Positions 33,194 to 42,680 of a stretch of DNA of 64,000 nucleotides are shown here, piece by piece. Under the pieces are notes generated by a model. It ran no database searches. It was not told where the DNA came from and saw nothing but the letters and a program-made list of their open reading frames with translations. The position numbers and the translations under genes are program-made. The stretch's first letter is position 1. Each line of letters begins with the position of its first letter. The stretch is from Pelomonas sp. Root1444 (GTDB lineage: Bacteria; Pseudomonadota; Gammaproteobacteria; Burkholderiales; Burkholderiaceae_C), in assembly GCF_001426885.1 (NCBI RefSeq), contig NZ_LMFP01000011.1, positions 33,017 through 97,016 of the forward strand. Reading direction: 5' to 3'.

Positions 33194-33576
33194 ACGCCTG
33201 GCTCGTCGGCGCAGCTGCCGTCATCGCGCTGACCGGGCTGGCCCACTCGGTGGGCGGCGAGTGGCTGATCTTCCGCGCGCTGCGGCGGGGCGGCGTGGTG
33301 CCCAGCGGCGGTCAGCCGGTATTGCGCGGCTACCAGACGCGCATCCTGTGGGCCACGTGGCACCTCGTGACGGTCCTCGGCTGGGCGCTGGCGGCGCTGC
33401 TGCTGTGGCTGGCGCTGCCGGAAGCCCGCGCTGCGTCGGGCGGCGTCATCGAACGCGGCGCGGCCCTCACGCTGGCGGCCGGTGGTGCGCTGGTGCTGTG
33501 GAGCAACCGCGGCCGCCATCCCGGCTGGGCCGCCCTGCTGACGGCAGCCGTTCTGGTGTGGATGTCTCAGCGGTAG
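33190..33576 (+). CDS. Small four-helix membrane protein coupled to P450
   Basis: A 128-residue inner-membrane protein with four hydrophobic helices and a polar loop GYQTRILWATWHLVT. The GTG start overlaps the P450 stop as GTGA, so it is translated with it. The family is not recognised. The pairing suggests a membrane dock or accessory for the P450, but no heme or cofactor motif is visible. It overlaps the convergent DUF3297 gene by 10 nt. Confidence 0.75.
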   Translation: MNAWLVGAAAVIALTGLAHSVGGEWLIFRALRRGGVVPSGGQPVLRGYQTRILWATWHLVTVLGWALAALLLWLALPEARAASGGVIERGAALTLAAGGALVLWSNRGRHPGWAALLTAAVLVWMSQR

Positions 33577-33812
33577 AAGGCCTCGACCGCGCCCTTGAGC
33601 TTGATCGTCAGCGGCCGGCCCTTGCGGTCCAGCGTCTTGCCGGCGGGCACCTTGATCCAGCCTTCGCTGATGCAGTATTCCTCGACGTCGTGGCGCTCCT
33701 TGCCGTTGAAGCGGATGCCGATGTCGTGCTCGAAGACGGCGGCGACATGGTGGGGGCTGCGCGGGTCGACGCTGAGGTGATCGGGCAGTTCGGGGCGGGT
33801 GGCTTCGGACAT
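33567..33812 (-). CDS. DUF3297 family protein
   Basis: An 81-residue cytoplasmic protein of a conserved proteobacterial family of unknown function. The family pattern is clear: LPDHLSVDPRSPHH, GIGIRFNGKERHDVEEYCIS, EGWIKVPAGKTLDRKGRPL and TIKLKGAVEAF. Length is typical. It probably forms its own transcription unit between the convergent membrane protein and the kinase operon. Confidence 0.9.
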   Translation of the reverse strand: MSEATRPELPDHLSVDPRSPHHVAAVFEHDIGIRFNGKERHDVEEYCISEGWIKVPAGKTLDRKGRPLTIKLKGAVEAFYR

Positions 33813-33867
33813 GGACCTGGGCGGCAATGGAGCAAGGCCGGCATTGTCGCGCGCCCGGCGGGGCGGC

Positions 33868-35268
33868 TTAAGGCTTCGGTTGCCGCACCGGCAGCACGAC
33901 GCGGAACGTCGTGCCTTCGCCCACGCGGCTTTCCACCTCGATGCGGCCATGGTGCCTTTGCACGATGCCGTAGGACAGCGACAGGCCCAGCCCCGTGCCC
34001 TTGCCGACCGGCTTGGTGGTGAAGAAGGGGTCGAAGAGGCGTGACAGGTTCTCCGGCGGGATGCCGCTGCCGGTGTCGGCCACCTCCAGCCAGACGCTGT
34101 CGCCCTCCGTGCCGGTGGTGAGGGTGATGCTGCCGCGCTGCGGCCCCATCGCGTGCGCGGCGTTGACCACCAGGTTCATGACCACCTGGTTGATCTGCGA
34201 CGCCTGGCATTCGATCTCCGGGATCTGCCCGTACGCCTTGACGACGTCGGCCACCGCGCGCACTTCGCTGGCGACGATGTTCAGCGTCGAGTCGATGCCG
34301 GCGTGCAGGCTGACGGTCTGCCAGGCCTGCGCCGAGTCGACCTGCGAGAAGTCGCGCAGGTCCTGCACGATGGCGCGCACCCGCTCGATGCCTTCCTTGG
34401 ATTCGCGCATCAGGCCCGGCACGTCCTCCTTCAGGAAGTCGAACTGCAAGTCCTTGCGCAGCCGCGCGAGGCCGCTGGCGGTCTCGGGCGAGTTCAGCTG
34501 CGCCGCGGCGCGCTCGTAGGCATCGAGCAACGCGAACAGGTTGTCCAGGTAGCCCTGCAGGGCGCCGAAGTTGGAGCAGACGAAGCCGATCGGGTTGTTG
34601 ATCTCGTGTGCGACGCCGGCGGCGAGCTGGCCGATGGAGGCCAGCTTCTCCGACTGCACCAACTGGCTCTCGCGGTGCTTGCGTTCGGCGATCTCCACCT
34701 GCAGGGCTTCGTTGGCGTGCACCAGCTTGGCGGTGCGCTCGGCGACGGCCGCCTCGAGTTGGTCGATCTGCAAGTCCGCCTGCCGGGTCGCCTGCCACTT
34801 GGCGGTCAGCGCGCTGGCCAGCTGGCGCACCTCGATGTTGTCGAACGGCTTCTTCAGGATCAGCAGCCGGTCGCGCGCGTCCAGCCGGGCCAGCACCTCT
34901 TCCCAAGAGGTGTCCGAATAGGCGGTGCAGATGACGACCTGCAGCTGGGGGTCGGCGCGCCACAGGTGCTCGATGGTCTCGACGCCGTCCCAGCCCGGCG
35001 GCATGCGCATGTCGACGAAGGCCATCGCATAGGGCCGGCCGGCGGCCAGCGAAGCCTGCACCTTGGCGAGCCCCTCCTCGCCCTGGTAGGCGGAGTCGAG
35101 CTCGAACGGCACCTCGACCGACTTGACCTCGTCGTCGAAGAGCGCGGCCTTGGCGGCGTCCAGCGCCGATTTGGCGGCCGACGGCGGCAGCAGGATCTTG
35201 CGGAAGTCCTCGTGGATGGTCGGCATGTCGTCCACGAGCAGGATGCGTCGGTTCTGGATCGTGTTCAT
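33868..35268 (-). CDS. Receiver-histidine kinase hybrid (REC-HK)
   Basis: A 466-residue cytoplasmic protein. Residues 8-150 are a receiver (ILLVDDMPTIHEDF, phosphoacceptor Asp in FVDMRMPPGWDG, Lys in ILKKPF). A coiled coil follows (about 160-200), then HisKA with LASIGQLAAGVAHEINNPIG and HATPase boxes N (NQVVMNLVVNAAHAM), G1 (VADTGSGIP) and G2 (GKGTGLGLS). It can both accept a phosphate and phosphorylate a further partner. The start overlaps the stop of the membrane kinase gene (ATGA), so the two probably form one relay. It is the last gene of the riboswitch-led operon. Confidence 0.9.
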   Translation of the reverse strand: MNTIQNRRILLVDDMPTIHEDFRKILLPPSAAKSALDAAKAALFDDEVKSVEVPFELDSAYQGEEGLAKVQASLAAGRPYAMAFVDMRMPPGWDGVETIEHLWRADPQLQVVICTAYSDTSWEEVLARLDARDRLLILKKPFDNIEVRQLASALTAKWQATRQADLQIDQLEAAVAERTAKLVHANEALQVEIAERKHRESQLVQSEKLASIGQLAAGVAHEINNPIGFVCSNFGALQGYLDNLFALLDAYERAAAQLNSPETASGLARLRKDLQFDFLKEDVPGLMRESKEGIERVRAIVQDLRDFSQVDSAQAWQTVSLHAGIDSTLNIVASEVRAVADVVKAYGQIPEIECQASQINQVVMNLVVNAAHAMGPQRGSITLTTGTEGDSVWLEVADTGSGIPPENLSRLFDPFFTTKPVGKGTGLGLSLSYGIVQRHHGRIEVESRVGEGTTFRVVLPVRQPKP

Positions 35269-36935
35269 GAAACCGAGCTCCCAGTGGGTGGCTGCAGCGG
35301 CAGCTTGAGGGTGAAGGTGGCGCCGAGGCCGGGGCCGTCGCTGTGGGCAACGAGCGTGCCGCCCATCTCGCGCGCGGCGAGCACGCAGCTGTGCAGGCCG
35401 AAGCCGTGGCCGTCCTTCTTGGTGGTGAAGCCGTGCGCAAAGATGCGCGTCAGGTTTTCCGCCGGGATGCCCTCGCCGGTGTCGCTGACGGCCACCCGCA
35501 GCGTGCCGTCCGGCGCCACCTCGACCCGCAGCGTCAGCTGGTGGTGGGCGCCGGGCGCGCTCTTCATCGCGAAGCGCGCGTTGCCAATCAGGTTGACCAG
35601 GATCAGCAGCATGCGGTGCTTGTCGAGCATCAGCAGCGGCACGGGTGCGAACGCCCTGACCACGCTGACCTGATGGTCGGCGAGGCCGCCGGTGTCGATG
35701 CGCAGCGCGTCCTCGACCAGGTCGGTGACCTGGACCTCCTCCACCACGCTGGATGCACCGGCATACGACTGCTGCGTGGCGACGATCTCCTTGATGTGCT
35801 TGACGCTTTTCGTCAGCGCGGCAAGTTCCTCGGCAATGCCCTGCCGCTCCTCGGCCAGCGCCTGGGCGAGCTGCTTCAGGTAGCCGGGCAGCAGCCGGCC
35901 GCGCGGGTCGCTGGTGATGTAGTCGCCCAGGTCATGGGCATGCGCGTCCATCAGCGCGACGGCGCGCGCCAGGCCCGCCGACTCCGAGTCGCGCACCTTG
36001 GCGCCGATCAACTCGGCCGACACGTTGACGCTGTTGAGCACGTTGCCCACGTTGTGCAGCACATTGGTAGCGATCTCGGCCATGCCGGCGTGGCGCGCGT
36101 TCTCCAGCATCTGGCGCTGCGCGGCCTGCTGCTCGCGCGCCTTGCGCACCGCCTCCTCGGCCTCCTCGCGGCGGAAGAAGTAGTGCCCGGTGGTCAGCAG
36201 GATGACGATGATGGGCACGGCCGCCACGACGACGACGATGCCCGAGCTGCGAAAGCTCAGGTACAGGAAGCTCGCCACGGAGGCATTGCCGGCGTAGGCC
36301 ACGCCGAGCCAGCCGAACGAGTCGATGAAGCTGCGCAGCCGCAGCGGCTCGTTGCTCTTGAGCCGCGCCACCATCGTCACCATGACGGTGTTGACGACGA
36401 AGTAGGCCAGCGCAAAGCAGACGGCGCCGGCCAGCAGCAGCCCGTCGCTGTCCAGCCCGTGGCGCCTGAGGGCGTCCAGCGCCGCATGCAGCAGCGAGCC
36501 GGCGCTGAACATCGCGACCGCTGCCATCGCCGGGCTGGCGATGCGGCTGGTCCAGCGCCTGGAGGTGCGGTAGGAGCCCACCGCCGCCTCGCAGGCCGAG
36601 GCGATCGCGGCGGCCTGCGGCCCGTCGAGCAGCAGCAGCAGGAAGATGAAGATCTCGCCGGCGGTGAAGGAGTTGGTCGAGCGCGGGATGCGCACCGGCA
36701 CCAGCCCCGCCAGCATCGCCAGCACCGTGCCGCCGGCCAGGTGCATCCAGGCCCGTGGCGGCAGCCCGGCGACGTGTTGCACGGCATACGCCAGCACCGC
36801 CAGGCCCAGCACCACCACGGTCCACCAGTACACCGTGGCGCGGCGGTTGTAGTCGGGCATGAGCCGCTCGTGCAGGCGCAAGCACCATGCGGGGAGCAGT
36901 GGGTTCGTTGCCACGGTCGCCGCCGCCGGGTTCAT
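35265..36935 (-). CDS. Membrane histidine kinase with multi-helix N-terminal sensor
   Basis: A 556-residue kinase. About eight membrane helices (about 35-280), a MASE-like sensor with no large periplasmic domain, lead to a coiled coil. An unusual H-box follows, AGMAEIATNVLHNVGNVLNS, in which His is followed by Asn-Val-Gly-Asn rather than Glu-Ile-Asn. N-box (LILVNLIGNARFAM), G1 (VSDTGEGIP) and G2 (KKDGHGFGLHS) boxes complete it. The ATG at 36935 follows the protease stop by 7 nt with GAGG upstream; an ATG at 36971 would overlap the protease. The following REC-HK is its likely phosphoacceptor partner. Confidence 0.87.
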   Translation of the reverse strand: MNPAAATVATNPLLPAWCLRLHERLMPDYNRRATVYWWTVVVLGLAVLAYAVQHVAGLPPRAWMHLAGGTVLAMLAGLVPVRIPRSTNSFTAGEIFIFLLLLLDGPQAAAIASACEAAVGSYRTSRRWTSRIASPAMAAVAMFSAGSLLHAALDALRRHGLDSDGLLLAGAVCFALAYFVVNTVMVTMVARLKSNEPLRLRSFIDSFGWLGVAYAGNASVASFLYLSFRSSGIVVVVAAVPIIVILLTTGHYFFRREEAEEAVRKAREQQAAQRQMLENARHAGMAEIATNVLHNVGNVLNSVNVSAELIGAKVRDSESAGLARAVALMDAHAHDLGDYITSDPRGRLLPGYLKQLAQALAEERQGIAEELAALTKSVKHIKEIVATQQSYAGASSVVEEVQVTDLVEDALRIDTGGLADHQVSVVRAFAPVPLLMLDKHRMLLILVNLIGNARFAMKSAPGAHHQLTLRVEVAPDGTLRVAVSDTGEGIPAENLTRIFAHGFTTKKDGHGFGLHSCVLAAREMGGTLVAHSDGPGLGATFTLKLPLQPPTGSSVS

Positions 36936-36942
36936 GGCGGCC

Positions 36943-39168
36943 TCACGGCTCGCCGCGGTGGTTGGTTTCACTCATCACGACACCTTCGCTCATCACCACG
37001 CCCTCGCTCATGACGATGCCTTCACTCATGACGATACCCTCGCTCATCACGATGCCCTCACTCATGACGATGCCTTCGCTCATCACGATGCCCTCGCTCA
37101 TCACGATGCCGCTGCCCGAGGCCAGCCAGCCGGTGAGCGTGGCGACAGGCATGAATAGCCCGGCGCGCGCACGCAGCGACGTGCCGCCGGCCAAGGCGCT
37201 GGCCCAGACGACGCCCGGCGTGACGAAGCGCTGGTTGGGCGCGCGGGCCACCGTGACGGCCCGCACCCACGGGCCAGTGGCCTCGCCGGCGCGTGCGGGC
37301 GCGTAGACCACCGTGAGGCGCTGCGCCGACTGGCGCACCCACAGCACGCGCGGGTCGTAGATCGGCTGGTACTGCGTGAACAGCGCCGCGCCGCTCAGCA
37401 GGTGCACACCGCCGGCGAAGACGATGCGGCCCCAGTTCACGCTGGCGCCGTTGATGACCGACACGGGCGTGGGCATGGCCTTGCCTGGCGCCAGCAACGA
37501 CGCGCCCGGCTGGAGCGTGCCGGCCGCGATGGCGCTGGCGACGTCGCTGCGCAGCGCGCCGGCCAGGCGCACGGCGCCTTCGATGTTGAGCAGGCCCGCG
37601 CCTTGCTGCAGCAGGTTGGCGTCGGCGATCGGCTGCGCGGTGTACTGCAGCATGGCCTTGACCAGCGGCGGCGTGAGGCCGGGGTTGGCCTGCAGCATCA
37701 GCGCCACGGCGCCCGCGACGGCCGGCGCCGCCACTGAGGTGCCGCTCAGGTTCATCAGCTGGCGCTGGCGCGGCTGCGCCGTGCCACCGAACGGTGCCGA
37801 CAGCTCCGGGTAGGTGCTGGGCAGGTAGCTCCAGTCGCCACCGCGGCCCGGCCCGGCGGCCAGCACGCTGACCACCTTGTTGCCGGGCGCCACCAGGTCG
37901 GGCTTGATCAGGTTGTCGACAAGGCGCGCACCGTTGCTGGCGATGTGGAAGCCGCGCGTCGGGCCGCGCGAGCTGAAGAAGTTGACGCTGTCGTCGTCGC
38001 GGCGCGCCGTGGCGTGTGTGTTGGCCGCGCCGACGGTGATGACCGACGGTTCGTTGCCCGGGGCGCTGATGCTGCCGTACTGCTCGGCGCCGGCGGCCGT
38101 CTGGCCGTAGTTGCCGGCGGCCACCACCACCGTGATGCCGGCCGCCACTGCGCTGCGCACCGCGCGGCACAGCGGGTCGGTGAGGTAGGACTCGGTCGAG
38201 TCCGCCGCCAGGCTGACGTTCAGCACGCGGATGTTGTACTCCCGCGCATGCTGGATGACCCAGTCGATGCCGGCCAGCACGTCGCTGAGCTGGCCGGATC
38301 CGGCGTCGTCGAGCACCTTCACGTCAAGCAGGTTCGCGTTCGGCGCGATGCCGGTCGAATCCACCACCTGGTAGGCACCGCGCCCCGCGGCCACGCCGGC
38401 CACATGGCTGCCGTGGCCGTAGCCGTCTGCATCCAGCGCGCCGTCGGCCGCGATCCTTCTTTCGAAGGCAGACATCGACTGCGAGGCGGACAGGTCGACA
38501 CCGCCCGTCCAGTCGCGCATGCGACCGGAGCCGACGTCGCCGACCTTCAGCAGGTTGACCGCACGGATGACGCGTGAACGCTGCGAGCTCGCGCCGCGCA
38601 GGTTTTCGTGGTCCGGGTCCACACCCGAATCCAGCACCGCGATGCCGACGCCCGAGCCGTCCAGCCCCGGGACCGCGCCGATGCCGGCGCCGCGAACGCT
38701 GGTGGCGCCGGTGGCCAGCTCCAGCGCGCTCGCAGTGCGTGCGGCGGGCCGGTTGGGCGAGATGCTCTGCACGTCGGCCCGCGCGGCGATCTCGGCCACG
38801 CGCTGGGCCGGCAGCATGACCGACAGCGCGGGCAGCGACACGTAGCGGTGGTAGACCGACCCACCCGCCGCCAGCACATGGGCGCGCAGGTCGGCCAGTT
38901 CCGGGTCGGCGGAGTTGCTGACGACCAGGGCCTTCACGTAACGCGTGCCGGCGGCTTCACGCGTCCACGTCTGCCGGCCTGGCGTGCGTGCATCGAGTGC
39001 CTGCCGCAGGTCCGCGGCGATCTTGTTGGCCGCGCCGGCCTGCGCGCGGGCGGGCTGCGGGCCGCACAGCAGGCCCAGCAGCAGCGCCGCCATGAATGCG
39101 GCAAGCAGGCCGCGCGCCGCGCGGAACTCGACGAGGATGATGAACGGGAGGGATGCAGGGTGGCTCAT
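36943..39168 (-). CDS. Secreted subtilisin-like (S8) serine protease with C-terminal repeat tail
   Basis: A 741-residue exported protease. A signal peptide (about 15-43, ending PARAQA) and an I9-like propeptide (about 75-145) precede the S8 domain: Asp180 (VLDSGVDPDHE), His252 (GYGHGSHVAG), oxyanion Asn353 (AAGNYGQ) and Ser478 (NLSGTSVAAPAVAG). A beta-rich region runs to about 680, and the tail is eight copies of the hexapeptide G-I/V-V-M-S-E. AGGAG precedes the ATG. A c-di-GMP-I riboswitch lies in its leader, and two histidine kinases follow in the same operon. Confidence 0.93.
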   Translation of the reverse strand: MSHPASLPFIILVEFRAARGLLAAFMAALLLGLLCGPQPARAQAGAANKIAADLRQALDARTPGRQTWTREAAGTRYVKALVVSNSADPELADLRAHVLAAGGSVYHRYVSLPALSVMLPAQRVAEIAARADVQSISPNRPAARTASALELATGATSVRGAGIGAVPGLDGSGVGIAVLDSGVDPDHENLRGASSQRSRVIRAVNLLKVGDVGSGRMRDWTGGVDLSASQSMSAFERRIAADGALDADGYGHGSHVAGVAAGRGAYQVVDSTGIAPNANLLDVKVLDDAGSGQLSDVLAGIDWVIQHAREYNIRVLNVSLAADSTESYLTDPLCRAVRSAVAAGITVVVAAGNYGQTAAGAEQYGSISAPGNEPSVITVGAANTHATARRDDDSVNFFSSRGPTRGFHIASNGARLVDNLIKPDLVAPGNKVVSVLAAGPGRGGDWSYLPSTYPELSAPFGGTAQPRQRQLMNLSGTSVAAPAVAGAVALMLQANPGLTPPLVKAMLQYTAQPIADANLLQQGAGLLNIEGAVRLAGALRSDVASAIAAGTLQPGASLLAPGKAMPTPVSVINGASVNWGRIVFAGGVHLLSGAALFTQYQPIYDPRVLWVRQSAQRLTVVYAPARAGEATGPWVRAVTVARAPNQRFVTPGVVWASALAGGTSLRARAGLFMPVATLTGWLASGSGIVMSEGIVMSEGIVMSEGIVMSEGIVMSEGIVMSEGVVMSEGVVMSETNHRGEP
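36967..37110 (-). repeat. Eight tandem 18-bp coding repeats (GIVMSE/GVVMSE)
   Basis: Eight in-frame 18-bp units occupy 36967-37110 near the 3' end of the protease gene. On the minus strand each encodes Gly-Ile-Val-Met-Ser-Glu (six copies) or Gly-Val-Val-Met-Ser-Glu (last two). Variation is mainly synonymous (for example ATGAGC/ATGAGT, GGC/GGT). The short period makes copy-number change by slippage likely. Confidence 0.95.
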
Positions 39169-39309
39169 AGGGACTCCTGTACGAGCTGCGTGAAACGCAG
39201 GCGCATTCGTGCAAGACAGGGTCGCTGTGGCCGCCGTGGTGGCAGGGCTGCCGCCTTCGACAAGGCATCGAAGGGGGACGGACGGGGCACCTGGCGGGGC
39301 CGATCCGTC

Positions 39310-39390
39310 TTGGGGCAACCCCGCTGTCATGGCCCTAAGGCTGTAGACCGGAAGCTTTGCGACCCCGGCTTTCGCTCGGGTGTGCCTTTG
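39310..39390 (-). promoter_or_regulatory. Cyclic di-GMP-I (GEMM) riboswitch aptamer
   Basis: On the minus strand, reading toward the protease, the GEMM-I consensus is present in order. AAAGGCACACCC comes first, then a CCCG/CGGG stem capped by a GAAA tetraloop (GAGCGAAAGCCGGGG). Next are TCGCAAAGCTTCCGGTCTA, the CCTTAGGG receptor-side segment, and finally ACAGCGGGGTTGCC. It binds c-di-GMP and controls the downstream gene. The 142 nt between aptamer and ATG hold hairpins CCTTCGA/TCGAAGG and CTGCG/CGCAG, the latter just before the Shine-Dalgarno, so translational control is possible. I see no U-tract. Confidence 0.9.
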
Positions 39391-39407
39391 TCATCAAGTG
39401 ACTCGAA

Positions 39408-39413
39408 TGTATA
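39408..39413 (-). promoter_or_regulatory. Probable -10 element of the riboswitch-protease promoter
   Basis: TATACA on the minus strand, placing transcription start near 39400, about 10 nt before the aptamer. The hexamer 17 bp upstream (GTGTGC) is a poor -35, so an activator may be needed. Together with the riboswitch and the sigma-factor leader this accounts for the 39169-39531 gene-free stretch. Confidence 0.45.
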
Positions 39414-39531
39414 GAAACGAAACCTTCCGCGCACACGCCGGGCGGGGGCGCCAAAGTCAGAAGTCACGAAATGCAACCTTGATACAACTGCCGCAGCCTG
39501 CGCCTCGGCCGGGGGGCTTGGAGAGCTGGGG

Positions 39532-40113
39532 ATGGCCCTGGCGCCCCAGTCCACCGAGCATCGCGCCATGACGGAAATCACCCAGCTGCTGACGGCACTG
39601 TCCAGCGGCGACGCCGCGGCGCGCGACCGCCTCTACACGCTGCTCTATCCCGAACTCAAACGCCTGGCGCGGAGTCATCTCGCGGGGCATGCGCCCATGA
39701 CGCTGGAGCCCGCAGCACTCATCCACGAGGTCTGGCTGAAAAGCGCCGGGCCGACGCCCAAGGAAGCGGCGCTGCACCGTGGGCAGTTCTTCGCGCATGC
39801 CAGCAAGGTCATGCGCAGCGTCATCGTCGACCATGTGCGCGAGCGCCAGGCCGACAAGCGCGGCGGCGGCGCCCACGTGACGCTGTCGACCACGGCGCTC
39901 GACCAGCTGGGCACGCCCGACGTGCTCAAGCTCGACGACGTGCTGCAGACGCTGGAGCGCGCCGACGGCCGCGCCCACCAGGTCGTGCAGATGCGCTTTT
40001 TCGGCGGGCTGGAGATGGAGGAGATCGCAGACGTGCTGGGCGTGTCGGTGCCCACCATCAAGCGCGACTGGCGCAAGGCGCGCGCCTTCCTGTTCGACGC
40101 GTTGCAGCCGTGA
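39532..40113 (+). CDS. ECF-type RNA polymerase sigma factor (TIGR02999-like)
   Basis: A 193-residue sigma-70-family factor. Region 2 (LYTLLYPELKRLARSHLAGH, LIHEVWLKSAG, RGQFFAHASKVMRSVIVDHV) and region 4 (VVQMRFFGGLEMEEIADVLG, VSVPTIKRDWRKARAFLF) match the subgroup first seen in Acidobacteria and Planctomycetes and now common in Burkholderiales with Ser/Thr kinases. GGAGA 7 nt upstream supports the ATG at 39532; an ATG at 39568 is an alternative. The stop overlaps the kinase start (GTGA). Kinase phosphorylation probably sets its activity. Confidence 0.9.
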   Translation: MALAPQSTEHRAMTEITQLLTALSSGDAAARDRLYTLLYPELKRLARSHLAGHAPMTLEPAALIHEVWLKSAGPTPKEAALHRGQFFAHASKVMRSVIVDHVRERQADKRGGGAHVTLSTTALDQLGTPDVLKLDDVLQTLERADGRAHQVVQMRFFGGLEMEEIADVLGVSVPTIKRDWRKARAFLFDALQP

Positions 40114-42680
40114 ATACGCTGGACCGTGCCGGCGCGCTGGCGGCCTTCGACGCGTGGCAGGACGCGAGCCCGGCCGAGCGCGAGGCGTTCCTGTCCGAGC
40201 TGCCGCCGGCGCAGCGCGCGCGGCTGCAGGCGCTGATCGATGCCGACCGCGCCGCCGAGGCGCGCGGCTTCCTCGCCGCGCCGGCGCCCTGGCCCGCCGC
40301 GCACGAGCTGGCCGGCCAGGTGCTGGGCGCGTGGACGCTGGTCGCCCCACTGGGCAGCGGCGGCATGGGCGAGGTCTGGCGCGCGCGGCGCAGCGACGGC
40401 GCCCACCAGGGCGAGGCAGCCATCAAGCTGCTGCACAGCCCCTGGCGCGGCGAAGCACAGCAGGCGCGTTTTCGCCGCGAGGGCGAGCTGCTGGCGCGGC
40501 TGACGCACCCCCACATCGCGCAGCTGCTGGACATCGGCGAGGCCTGGGTCGGCGCGACGCGCACCCGCTACCTAGTGCTGGAGCTGGTGGACGGCGAGCG
40601 CATCGACAGCTGGTGCGATGCGCACGGCCTGGACGTGCCGGCGCGGTTGCGCCTCTTCCTGCAGGTGTGCGATGCGGTGGCGCATGCGCATGCGCGGCTG
40701 GTCGTGCACCGCGACCTCAAGCCCGGCAACATCCTCGTCACCCCGGCCGGCCAGGTGAAGCTGCTGGACTTCGGCGTCGCCAAGCTGCTGGCCGACGACA
40801 CGGACGTCGAGTTGACGCGACAAGCGGCCGCCGGCCTGACGCCGGAGTACGCCGCGCCGGAGCAGCTGCGCGGTGAGCCGGTCAGCACGGCCACCGACGT
40901 CTATGCGCTGGGCCGGCTGCTGTGCCTGCTGCTCACCGGCCAGCGCGAGCCCGGCCCCCGGCTGCGCGGCGAGCCGGCGCTGATCGTCGCGCAGGCGTTG
41001 AAGGAGCGCCCAGAGGCGCGCTATGCCGGCGCCAGCGCGCTGGCCGACGACGTGCGCCGGCACCTGGCCCACCAGCCCATCGCCGCGCGGCCCGACTCGC
41101 TGGCCTACCGCAGCGCCAAGTTCGGGCGGCGCTACCGGCTGCAGCTGGCCGCGCTGGGCCTGGTGCTGGCGAGCCTGCTGGCCGGCGTGGCGACCACCGC
41201 CTGGCAGTGGCGCGAGGCCAGCCGCGAGGCCGAGCGCACGCGGCGCGTGCAGAGCGTGCTGACGGAACTGCTCGCCGGCCTCAGCCCCGATGCCTCGGGC
41301 AGCGCGACGGTGCCGATGATCGAGCTGCTGCGGCGCAGCTGGGCCGAGGCCAAGCGGCGGCTGGCCGGCGACCCGGCACTGCTGGCCGACGTGGCGCGGC
41401 CGCTCGGCCTGCTGCTGGTGCAGAACGGCGACCTGGCCCAGGCCCGCGAGGCGCTGCAGACCAGCCACACCCAGGCCCTGCGCCAGGGCCGGGCCAACAC
41501 GCCGGAACAGCGCGAGGTGAGCTTCGAACTCGCCACCGTGCTGCAGCGGCAGGGCGAGGTGCTGCAGGCCGATGCGCTGCTGCGTGGGCTGGCCGCGTCG
41601 GGCAGCGACGACTTCGAGCTCTTCGCGCGGGCCAGCCTCGGCGAGATGGCGCTGGAGGCCGGCCAGCTGGCCGAAGCGCGCACGCAGCTGACGCAGACGG
41701 CCGAGAAGGCGCTGGCGCGCCACTCCGCGCAGCACCGCAGCTACATCAAGGCCGCCGACCTGCTGGCCGCCGTGGCGCGGGCCGAAGGCAAATGGGACGA
41801 GGCGCGGCGCTGGTTCGCGGCGGTCGCTGCGGCGACCGCCTCGGCGCGCCCGGTGGATGCCGCGCTGGCCCGGCTGTCGGCGGCCACGCTGGAGGTGGAG
41901 CTGGGCCGCTACGCGCAGGCCGTGCCGCTGCTGCGCAACGCCGTCGCCGAGCTGGAACGGGTGCTTGGCGCCCGTCACACGCAGACGCTGTATGCGCGGG
42001 CGTGGTGGGCGGCGGCGCTGTTCCACCATGGCGAGCCCGAAGCCGCGCTGGCGCAGGCCCGGCGCGCGCTGGCGGACGCCCAGGCCGACGCGCAGGCCGC
42101 GCCCGACCCGGACACGCGCCCGCTGCTCGGCCTGGTGCTGGCGCGGCTGGAGTTGCGCTCGGGCCAGGCGCCGCAGGCCGAGCCGCGGCTGCGCGCCGCC
42201 TGGGCGCATTTCTCGACGGCCAAGGGCGCAACCCCGGCCTGGCGGTCGCAGGTGCTGCTGGGTGAACTGGCACTGCGGCGCGGCCAGGCCCAGCAGGCGC
42301 TCGACTGGCTGGAAGCGGCCGAGGCCGGCGGCGGCGCCGACCCGGCCGACCGCTGGCTGGGGCTGGCGCTGCTGGGCATCGCGCAGCTGGACCTGGGCCT
42401 GATGGAACCAGGCGCACGGGCGCTGCGCGAGGCCGAAGCGGCGGCCGACCTGAGCCTGCCGCCGGGGCATCCGGACCGCCTGCGCATGCAGGCGCTGGCC
42501 GCCATGGCCGCCTGGGCCACCGAGCCGGCGGCGCAGGTCCGCGCGCAGACCGCACTGGCGCGCTATGGCCAGGCGCTGGACACTCGGGCGGATGCCGCCC
42601 GGGTGCGGGCCGAGTTGCTGTCGCTGTCCGCTTCCCCACGCCCGCCGCGGGCGGCACTCACCGCGCTGCTGCGCTACTGA
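40110..42680 (+). CDS. Membrane Ser/Thr protein kinase with C-terminal TPR-like repeats
   Basis: An 856-residue Hanks-type kinase. A short N-terminal helical region is followed by the kinase domain (about 74-330) with GSGGMGEVW, Lys106 (EAAIKLLH), the catalytic loop VVHRDLKPGNILV, DFG in LLDFGVAK, and TPEYAAPEQ. A membrane helix at about 345-367 and an extracytoplasmic TPR-like region (about 370-856) follow, suggesting that periplasmic signals are passed to the kinase. It is coupled by GTGA to the sigma factor, its presumed substrate. Confidence 0.93.
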   Translation: MNTLDRAGALAAFDAWQDASPAEREAFLSELPPAQRARLQALIDADRAAEARGFLAAPAPWPAAHELAGQVLGAWTLVAPLGSGGMGEVWRARRSDGAHQGEAAIKLLHSPWRGEAQQARFRREGELLARLTHPHIAQLLDIGEAWVGATRTRYLVLELVDGERIDSWCDAHGLDVPARLRLFLQVCDAVAHAHARLVVHRDLKPGNILVTPAGQVKLLDFGVAKLLADDTDVELTRQAAAGLTPEYAAPEQLRGEPVSTATDVYALGRLLCLLLTGQREPGPRLRGEPALIVAQALKERPEARYAGASALADDVRRHLAHQPIAARPDSLAYRSAKFGRRYRLQLAALGLVLASLLAGVATTAWQWREASREAERTRRVQSVLTELLAGLSPDASGSATVPMIELLRRSWAEAKRRLAGDPALLADVARPLGLLLVQNGDLAQAREALQTSHTQALRQGRANTPEQREVSFELATVLQRQGEVLQADALLRGLAASGSDDFELFARASLGEMALEAGQLAEARTQLTQTAEKALARHSAQHRSYIKAADLLAAVARAEGKWDEARRWFAAVAAATASARPVDAALARLSAATLEVELGRYAQAVPLLRNAVAELERVLGARHTQTLYARAWWAAALFHHGEPEAALAQARRALADAQADAQAAPDPDTRPLLGLVLARLELRSGQAPQAEPRLRAAWAHFSTAKGATPAWRSQVLLGELALRRGQAQQALDWLEAAEAGGGADPADRWLGLALLGIAQLDLGLMEPGARALREAEAAADLSLPPGHPDRLRMQALAAMAAWATEPAAQVRAQTALARYGQALDTRADAARVRAELLSLSASPRPPRAALTALLRY

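Follow-up and report, generated by a model that had tools for sequence, protein, structure and literature searches.

A c-di-GMP-I riboswitch aptamer precedes a subtilase gene and two kinase genes in Pelomonas sp. Root1444, and aptamers of the same class precede protease genes across its family

In a 64,000-nucleotide stretch of the genome of Pelomonas sp. Root1444 (contig NZ_LMFP01000011.1, positions 33,017 to 97,016; hereafter the window) we found a riboswitch aptamer of the cyclic diguanylate (c-di-GMP) class I. It is followed on the minus strand by genes for a predicted secreted subtilase, a membrane histidine kinase and a receiver-histidine kinase (REC-HK). The features of this unit are given in window coordinates, in the order in which they are read.

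39408-39413, minus strand: TATACA, a -10-like element
39311-39396, minus strand: c-di-GMP-I aptamer
39314-39326, minus strand: strand A, the aptamer 3' strand, CAGCGGGGTTGCC
39241-39253, minus strand: strand B, CGGCAGCCCTGCC, a possible alternative partner of strand A
39216-39223, minus strand: possible anti-Shine-Dalgarno, GACCCTGT
39186-39200, minus strand: CTGCG-TTTCA-CGCAG hairpin, between anti-Shine-Dalgarno and Shine-Dalgarno
39174-39178, minus strand: Shine-Dalgarno AGGAG
36943-39168, minus strand: S8 subtilase, 741 amino acids (aa), ATG at 39168
36971-37110, minus strand: 18-bp tandem repeat of 7.8 copies, encoding the subtilase C-terminal repeats
35265-36971, minus strand: membrane histidine kinase (membrane domain and HNVGN-type kinase; true start maybe the ATG at 36935)
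36147-36914, minus strand: membrane sensor domain (about residues 20-275), common to kinases and GGDEF-EAL proteins
33868-35268, minus strand: REC-HK, the third gene

When the whole window was searched against all Rfam families with cmscan, the sole match above cut-off was to c-di-GMP-I (RF01051) at 39396-39311 on the minus strand, with 69.8 bits against a gathering cut-off of 35, an E-value of 1.3e-11 and coverage of model positions 1-87 of 87. These values rule out a chance resemblance, and the element is a canonical, ordinary c-di-GMP-I aptamer. An initial annotation, made from the sequence alone, had read a GEMM-I riboswitch on this strand and proposed the Infernal check that now bears it out. 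A genome-wide search for RF01051 returned only this match. Our own covariance model scored it at 84.1 bits, a value that is partly self-scored, as the window aptamer is one of the rows from which the model was built.

The GGC at the start of the aptamer is intact in the window, so that both candidate selectivity bases are G; the numbering by which one of these two guanines corresponds to G20 of the Vc2 riboswitch is our assumption. In alignment A2 the second G occurs in 53/53 aptamers and the first in 51/53. Because both guanines are present in the window and near-invariant in A2, the ligand is likely c-di-GMP rather than cyclic GMP-AMP (cGAMP). Geobacter has cGAMP riboswitches that are structural relatives of the c-di-GMP riboswitch with a changed binding pocket (PMC8835794, available text), and the window aptamer might by analogy sense a cyclic dinucleotide other than c-di-GMP, for instance 3',3'-cGAMP (GEMM-Ib). 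We regard this as very improbable, since the counterpart of Vc2 G20 is described as a ligand selectivity factor (PMC9262584, available text). Within A2 we also observed an aptamer sub-type in which two internal-loop positions (39382 and 39362 in the window) are C and T, ACA/GTC replacing AAA/GAC. The C/T form with an extra P2 base accounts for 15/53 aptamers and the A/A form without it for 35/53; the C/T sub-type covers the subtilase operon and also other target genes.

The first gene downstream encodes a Peptidase S8, as indicated by its Pfam match (PF00082, E 3.2e-49) and by residues D180, H252 and S478, which we take to be the catalytic triad and which are invariant in 13 aligned subtilases, window included. 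Its N-terminus was judged by eye to be signal-peptide-like, and the product is thus a predicted secreted protease, in line with what had been proposed for this gene at the outset. At the C-terminus are eight GIVMSE-type six-residue repeats. Repeats of this type with varying letters (GIVLSE, GFILRE and others) were observed in 40 of the 43 subtilase C-termini compared, the remaining three being cut by contig ends. The whole genome holds 12 Peptidase_S8 matches in 10 open frames. A structure prediction for the subtilase had a mean predicted local distance difference test score (pLDDT) of 46.2 and was left unused.

Both kinase genes encode the HATPase_c domain (PF02518). HisKA in the REC-HK scored slightly under its cut-off (25.5 vs 26.9), and the membrane kinase has the HNVGN box, with HisKA not reported. 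Genes 2 and 3 overlap by 4 nucleotides (nt), and the junction between subtilase and membrane kinase is an overlap or a gap of a few nt, depending on the choice of start codon. We infer that the three genes are transcribed as one operon. The earlier description of two histidine kinases in one operon holds for the two co-directional kinase genes and needs amending for the second of them, which is a receiver-kinase because it carries a receiver besides its HATPase_c domain.

No Pfam family matched the membrane domain above cut-off, and a single stray match came from a related locus, L092 (21.4 bits vs 26.9). The AlphaFold model of the membrane domain had a mean pLDDT of 88.6. A Foldseek search of this model against the PDB gave no match at an E-value of 0.001 or better. 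The nine entries at the top of the list (lowest E-value 2.9e-3), with TM-scores of 0.53-0.71 when normalised by target length and of 0.34-0.48 by query length, were membrane components of energy-coupling factor (ECF)-type transporters, as which we also count 4m5b and 4huq, whose titles are silent on this point. As a lead, the membrane sensor may bind a small ligand, its modelled fold weakly resembling S components of ECF transporters. The same genome encodes a paralogue in which a PAS-PAS-kinase, 59% identical in its kinase part only, is followed by a REC-HK with 70% identity; this shows that kinase and REC-HK make up a cassette that exists apart from the membrane domain.

In the genus the subtilase (E 1e-40 or better) was found in 4/20 genomes, with RF01051 just upstream in 4/4, and in a family sample it was found (E 1e-60 or better) in 25/299 genomes. 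The aptamer was also located upstream of the subtilase in genomes G244 and G287 and on contig L091. We compared 43 subtilase genes, from the window and 40 loci, two of them with two genes each; L106, L117 and L120 were excluded because their contigs are those of L100, L096 and L099. The aptamer was found at 7/43 genes (window, L091, L104, L105, L107, L108 and L109, the last three being near-copies of each other), while L098 starts inside the subtilase with its leader outside the contig. A cmsearch of the 41 sources with our own model gave seven matches at 82-85 bits and no other above 14.1 bits; each of the seven, directly or through a near-copy, had gone into building the model, so what the test adds is that no others turned up. 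Aptamer, subtilase, membrane kinase and REC-HK follow in that order in 7/7 switch-bearing loci, the REC-HK of L109 being cut off by the end of its contig.

For 36 subtilase genes no aptamer was found, and there the arrangement differed. Within 7 kb downstream of thirty of them the same membrane domain occurs in fusion with GGDEF-EAL, and none of the 36 had a kinase match above 100 bits. As to the other six, L125, L135 and L136 reach a contig end, L129 has a partial membrane domain, and L110 and L134 have neither. In L092 and L093 two subtilases stand ahead of the membrane protein. Pfam reported PAS, GGDEF and EAL in each of five examples examined, and among 24 inspected GGDEF-EAL frames the GGDEF, EAL and DDFGTG motifs were intact in 19. 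The deviant frames are L092_5409 (AGDDF), L096 (SGDEF), L093_12736 (no GGDEF match), L098 (no EAL match, masked) and L111 (whose domain aligns although the chosen frame shows none of the motifs). These relatives thus resemble the window operon in their subtilase (46-62% identity), in similar repeats and in the shared membrane domain, but they lack a found riboswitch, and where the window operon has a kinase their output is a c-di-GMP enzyme.

In a tree of the S8 proteases (41 rows) the seven loci with riboswitch and kinase form one side of a branch with a Shimodaira-Hasegawa-like approximate likelihood ratio test (SH-aLRT) support of 99, and 0/500 shuffles were as low; in a tree of the membrane domain (37 rows) they likewise form one side of a branch, with support of 100. 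Comparison of the loci therefore places the riboswitch and the kinase together in one clade, the gain of the former coinciding with the exchange of enzyme for kinase. With both trees midpoint-rooted as drawn, the seven sit among GGDEF-EAL relatives, and because of this nesting the enzyme-fused form is the likelier ancestral state. This suggests that evolution rewired the tie between protease and c-di-GMP. An older operon of subtilase and membrane-domain-PAS-GGDEF-EAL protein would have had its membrane domain joined to the kinase of a cassette of kinase and REC-HK, and its leader would have gained the c-di-GMP riboswitch, whereby the tie to c-di-GMP would have shifted from enzyme output to RNA input.

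Two points weigh against this scenario. A single clade amounts to one event, so that a functional linkage of gain and exchange goes beyond the coincidence itself; and in a tree of REC-HK proteins the cassette from the same genome falls inside the operon group, so that the tree does not order the two copies by descent. Second REC-HK copies in genomes G007, G009 and G016 (L211-L213) had no match above 150 bits to a kinase like that of the operon in the fetched flank. We give only slightly less than an even chance to the alternative that riboswitch gain and enzyme-to-kinase exchange fell on the same branch independently and have no functional link. The single clade would fit it, as would the many other proteases, of quite different groups, that c-di-GMP-I switches also precede; it is opposed by the joint presence of both traits in 7/7 loci and by the lack of any mixture in the 30 GGDEF-EAL loci.

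Upstream of the aptamer the initial annotation had placed a -10 element. The TATACA found there is conserved, as judged by ATACA being unchanged in all five distinct leaders compared. Between aptamer and start codon, strand B has a core GGCA[AG]CCC that is common to the window, L091, L104 and L105 in an alignment of five leaders. In these 4/7 leaders it starts 61-63 nt past the aptamer and 83-86 nt ahead of the ATG. Pairing of strand A (AGCGGGGUUGCC) with strand B was equalled by 3, 6, 14 and 21 of 300 dinucleotide shuffles (window, L091, L104 and L105, respectively), so that this helix beats most shuffles in these four. With c-di-GMP bound, the 3' strand GGGGUUGCC would be held in the aptamer, and without ligand it would be free to pair with GGCA[AG]CCC about 60 nt downstream, the two folds being mutually exclusive. 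The leader would then set ribosome access to the Shine-Dalgarno.

Such translational control by the leader is plausible, and the Shine-Dalgarno may be sequestered. The CTGCG/CGCAG hairpin that had been noted before the Shine-Dalgarno is present at 39200-39186, and it had been read as a sign of translational control rather than termination. In favour of this reading, a terminator scan of 38950-39560, which covered the leader of the window only among the seven, found no coding-strand site in that leader, its single site being on the opposite strand inside the gene. Moreover, the Shine-Dalgarno and its possible anti-Shine-Dalgarno differ on both sides between L091 (GGCUCC/GGAGCC) and L105 (GACUCC/GGAGUC). 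Tested against letter shuffles, the anti-Shine-Dalgarno pairing was notable only in these two (L105 10/300, L091 23/300). Action on transcription, by a Rho-dependent or non-canonical terminator, would be compatible with the long leader (145 nt from the aptamer GCC to the subtilase ATG) and with an A:B switch that leaves the Shine-Dalgarno directly untouched, but given the terminator scan and the two-sided change we hold it to be rather doubtful.

As for the direction of control, enforcing the aptamer in predicted folds lowered the mean accessibility of the Shine-Dalgarno clearly in the window (0.52 to 0.14) and L107 (0.61 to 0.33) and slightly in L104 (0.59 to 0.51) and L105 (0.36 to 0.30), and left it practically unchanged in L091, L108 and L109. 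From these changes and the lack of a terminator on the window coding strand we lean, without claiming it, to a translational OFF switch, and that c-di-GMP turns the operon OFF seems to us somewhat the better bet. An ON switch is an alternative that we likewise hold to be rather doubtful. Cyclic-dinucleotide GEMM switches of both signs are described (PMC9262584, available text), but accessibility with the aptamer enforced was lower or equal in 7/7 leaders and never higher, and the class I switch of the Clostridioides difficile protease gene zmpI is reported as repressing with c-di-GMP (PMC6200980, available text). Several results speak against the proposed leader mechanism. A sigma-70 promoter scan found no match at the TATACA site, which leaves the proposed -10 with its conservation and without a sigma-70 consensus. 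In the shorter leaders of L107-L109 the A:B pairing is at chance (186, 100 and 175 of 300 shuffles). The anti-Shine-Dalgarno pairing is unexceptional in the window itself (100/300), as it is in L104 (90/300) and L107 (83/300), and the predicted drop in accessibility is clear in just 2/7 leaders.

RF01051 was found in 16/20 genomes of the genus, 88/299 of the family sample, 115/300 of the order sample (113 over cut-off) and 49/274 of the class sample. Downstream genes were surveyed at 118 RF01051 places. The genus contributed its full set of 28, and another 90 came from the 145 places outside the genus in a family table of 150. The latter were taken best-scoring first, so that the sample is not random, and the 118 do not include the operon copies of G244 and G287. 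The downstream frame was picked by length and third-position GC. At 58/118 places (genus 16/28, outside 42/90) the next gene fell into one blastp cluster of S8/sedolisin-like proteases. A GTSxxxP-type serine motif is present in 57/58 cluster proteins, L001 being cut short, and 30/58 have a Pfam Peptidase_S8 match. At 50% identity the cluster divides into seven groups, one of which has 28 members and holds L141, a protein that matches sedolisin structures (1nlu, E 1.5e-13). By its numbers, rather than by a per-protein table, this group would be the 28 proteins without a Pfam match. Its E-x3-D motif, read by eye, is one that we take to be sedolisin-like, and we presume S8 proteases and sedolisins to belong to one clan SB; five sedolisin-like proteins received no NCBIfam name.

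As a control on the loci L001-L058, the protease cluster was matched in 1/58 upstream flanks vs 39/58 downstream. With profiles made from the family's own proteins, downstream fractions were 39/58 in the family, 7/30 in other families of the order and 2/29 in other orders of the class, and upstream fractions 1/58, 0/30 and 0/29. For the order and the class, up to 30 genomes each contributed their best-scoring place. Given the origin of the profiles, the fraction in the family follows by construction, and in the other two samples distant S8 proteins may escape. Proteases are the largest target group of c-di-GMP-I riboswitches in the surveyed places, with about half of them. This share, like the exchange of enzyme for kinase, had not been noted in the initial annotation. 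The window operon shares with these other riboswitches of the family the aptamer class and the broad protease target, whereas 54/58 of the riboswitch-preceded proteases belong to other protease groups than its own.

The other 60 places, of which 59 were scanned because L180 had masked sequence, include genes for FliF (6), chemotaxis (4), receiver (4), TPR (4) and GGDEF/EAL (3) proteins. At L021, L022, L023, L165, L172 and L179 a c-di-GMP-I riboswitch lies 0.7-0.9 kb ahead of a fliF-type gene, which suggests riboswitch control of a flagellar operon in the family. At L053 and L139 (G274:C1:434001 and 436357) two strong aptamers stand about 2.4 kb apart with a protease gene behind each, perhaps as a tandem duplication. 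One genome from another order of the class (G771, L258) has 15 c-di-GMP-I matches.

Divergent from the unit, on the plus strand at 39532-42680, are an extracytoplasmic function sigma factor (TIGR02999 Sig-70_X6) and an overlapping Ser/Thr kinase with TPR repeats. A link of this pair to the unit was rejected, as was membership of a DUF3297 gene (33567-33950): neither gave a tblastn match of at least 60 bits in 30 related loci, of which 27 are distinct and some have short flanks. Plasmid-borne spread was likewise rejected, as none of 74 plasmid records with partial matches covered 80% of the subtilase. A manganese riboswitch (RF00080, 87.3 bits; L111:3337-3517, minus strand) some kb from a subtilase homologue is apparently unrelated.

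For C. difficile the available text already describes a secreted protease gene under a c-di-GMP riboswitch of class I, where Cdi-1-12 precedes zmpI (PPEP-1) and acts as an OFF switch (PMC6200980, PMC11477304). The window operon resembles this system in having a GEMM-I aptamer ahead of a gene for a secreted protease. It differs in that zmpI encodes a metalloprotease of another phylum, and that sensor-kinase genes are not mentioned in the accessible parts of these reports. In the open-access literature, with subscription papers including the original GEMM papers outside the search, we met neither the association with serine proteases in this family nor the exchange of enzyme for kinase. Nor was there a link between c-di-GMP riboswitches and subtilisins, and a joint mention of riboswitch and sedolisin was unrelated.

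Taken as a whole, a c-di-GMP-I riboswitch that controls the three genes for secreted subtilase, membrane sensor kinase and receiver-kinase, in an operon derived from a GGDEF-EAL operon, is to us a quite probable explanation of the sequences compared. For the wider proposition, that one clade rewired this module from GGDEF-EAL output to kinase with a riboswitch gained and that this family of Burkholderiales has a large riboswitch-run regulon of secreted proteases, comprising several S8 groups and sedolisin-like proteins, we judge the chances to be evenly balanced. c-di-GMP governs the choice between biofilm and motile life, and secreted proteases are one way of leaving or remodelling a biofilm. 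If true, the protease riboswitch regulon would link c-di-GMP directly, with no protein in between, to exoprotease output in an environmental family, and the enzyme-to-kinase exchange would provide a natural before-and-after pair for the rewiring of a signalling circuit.

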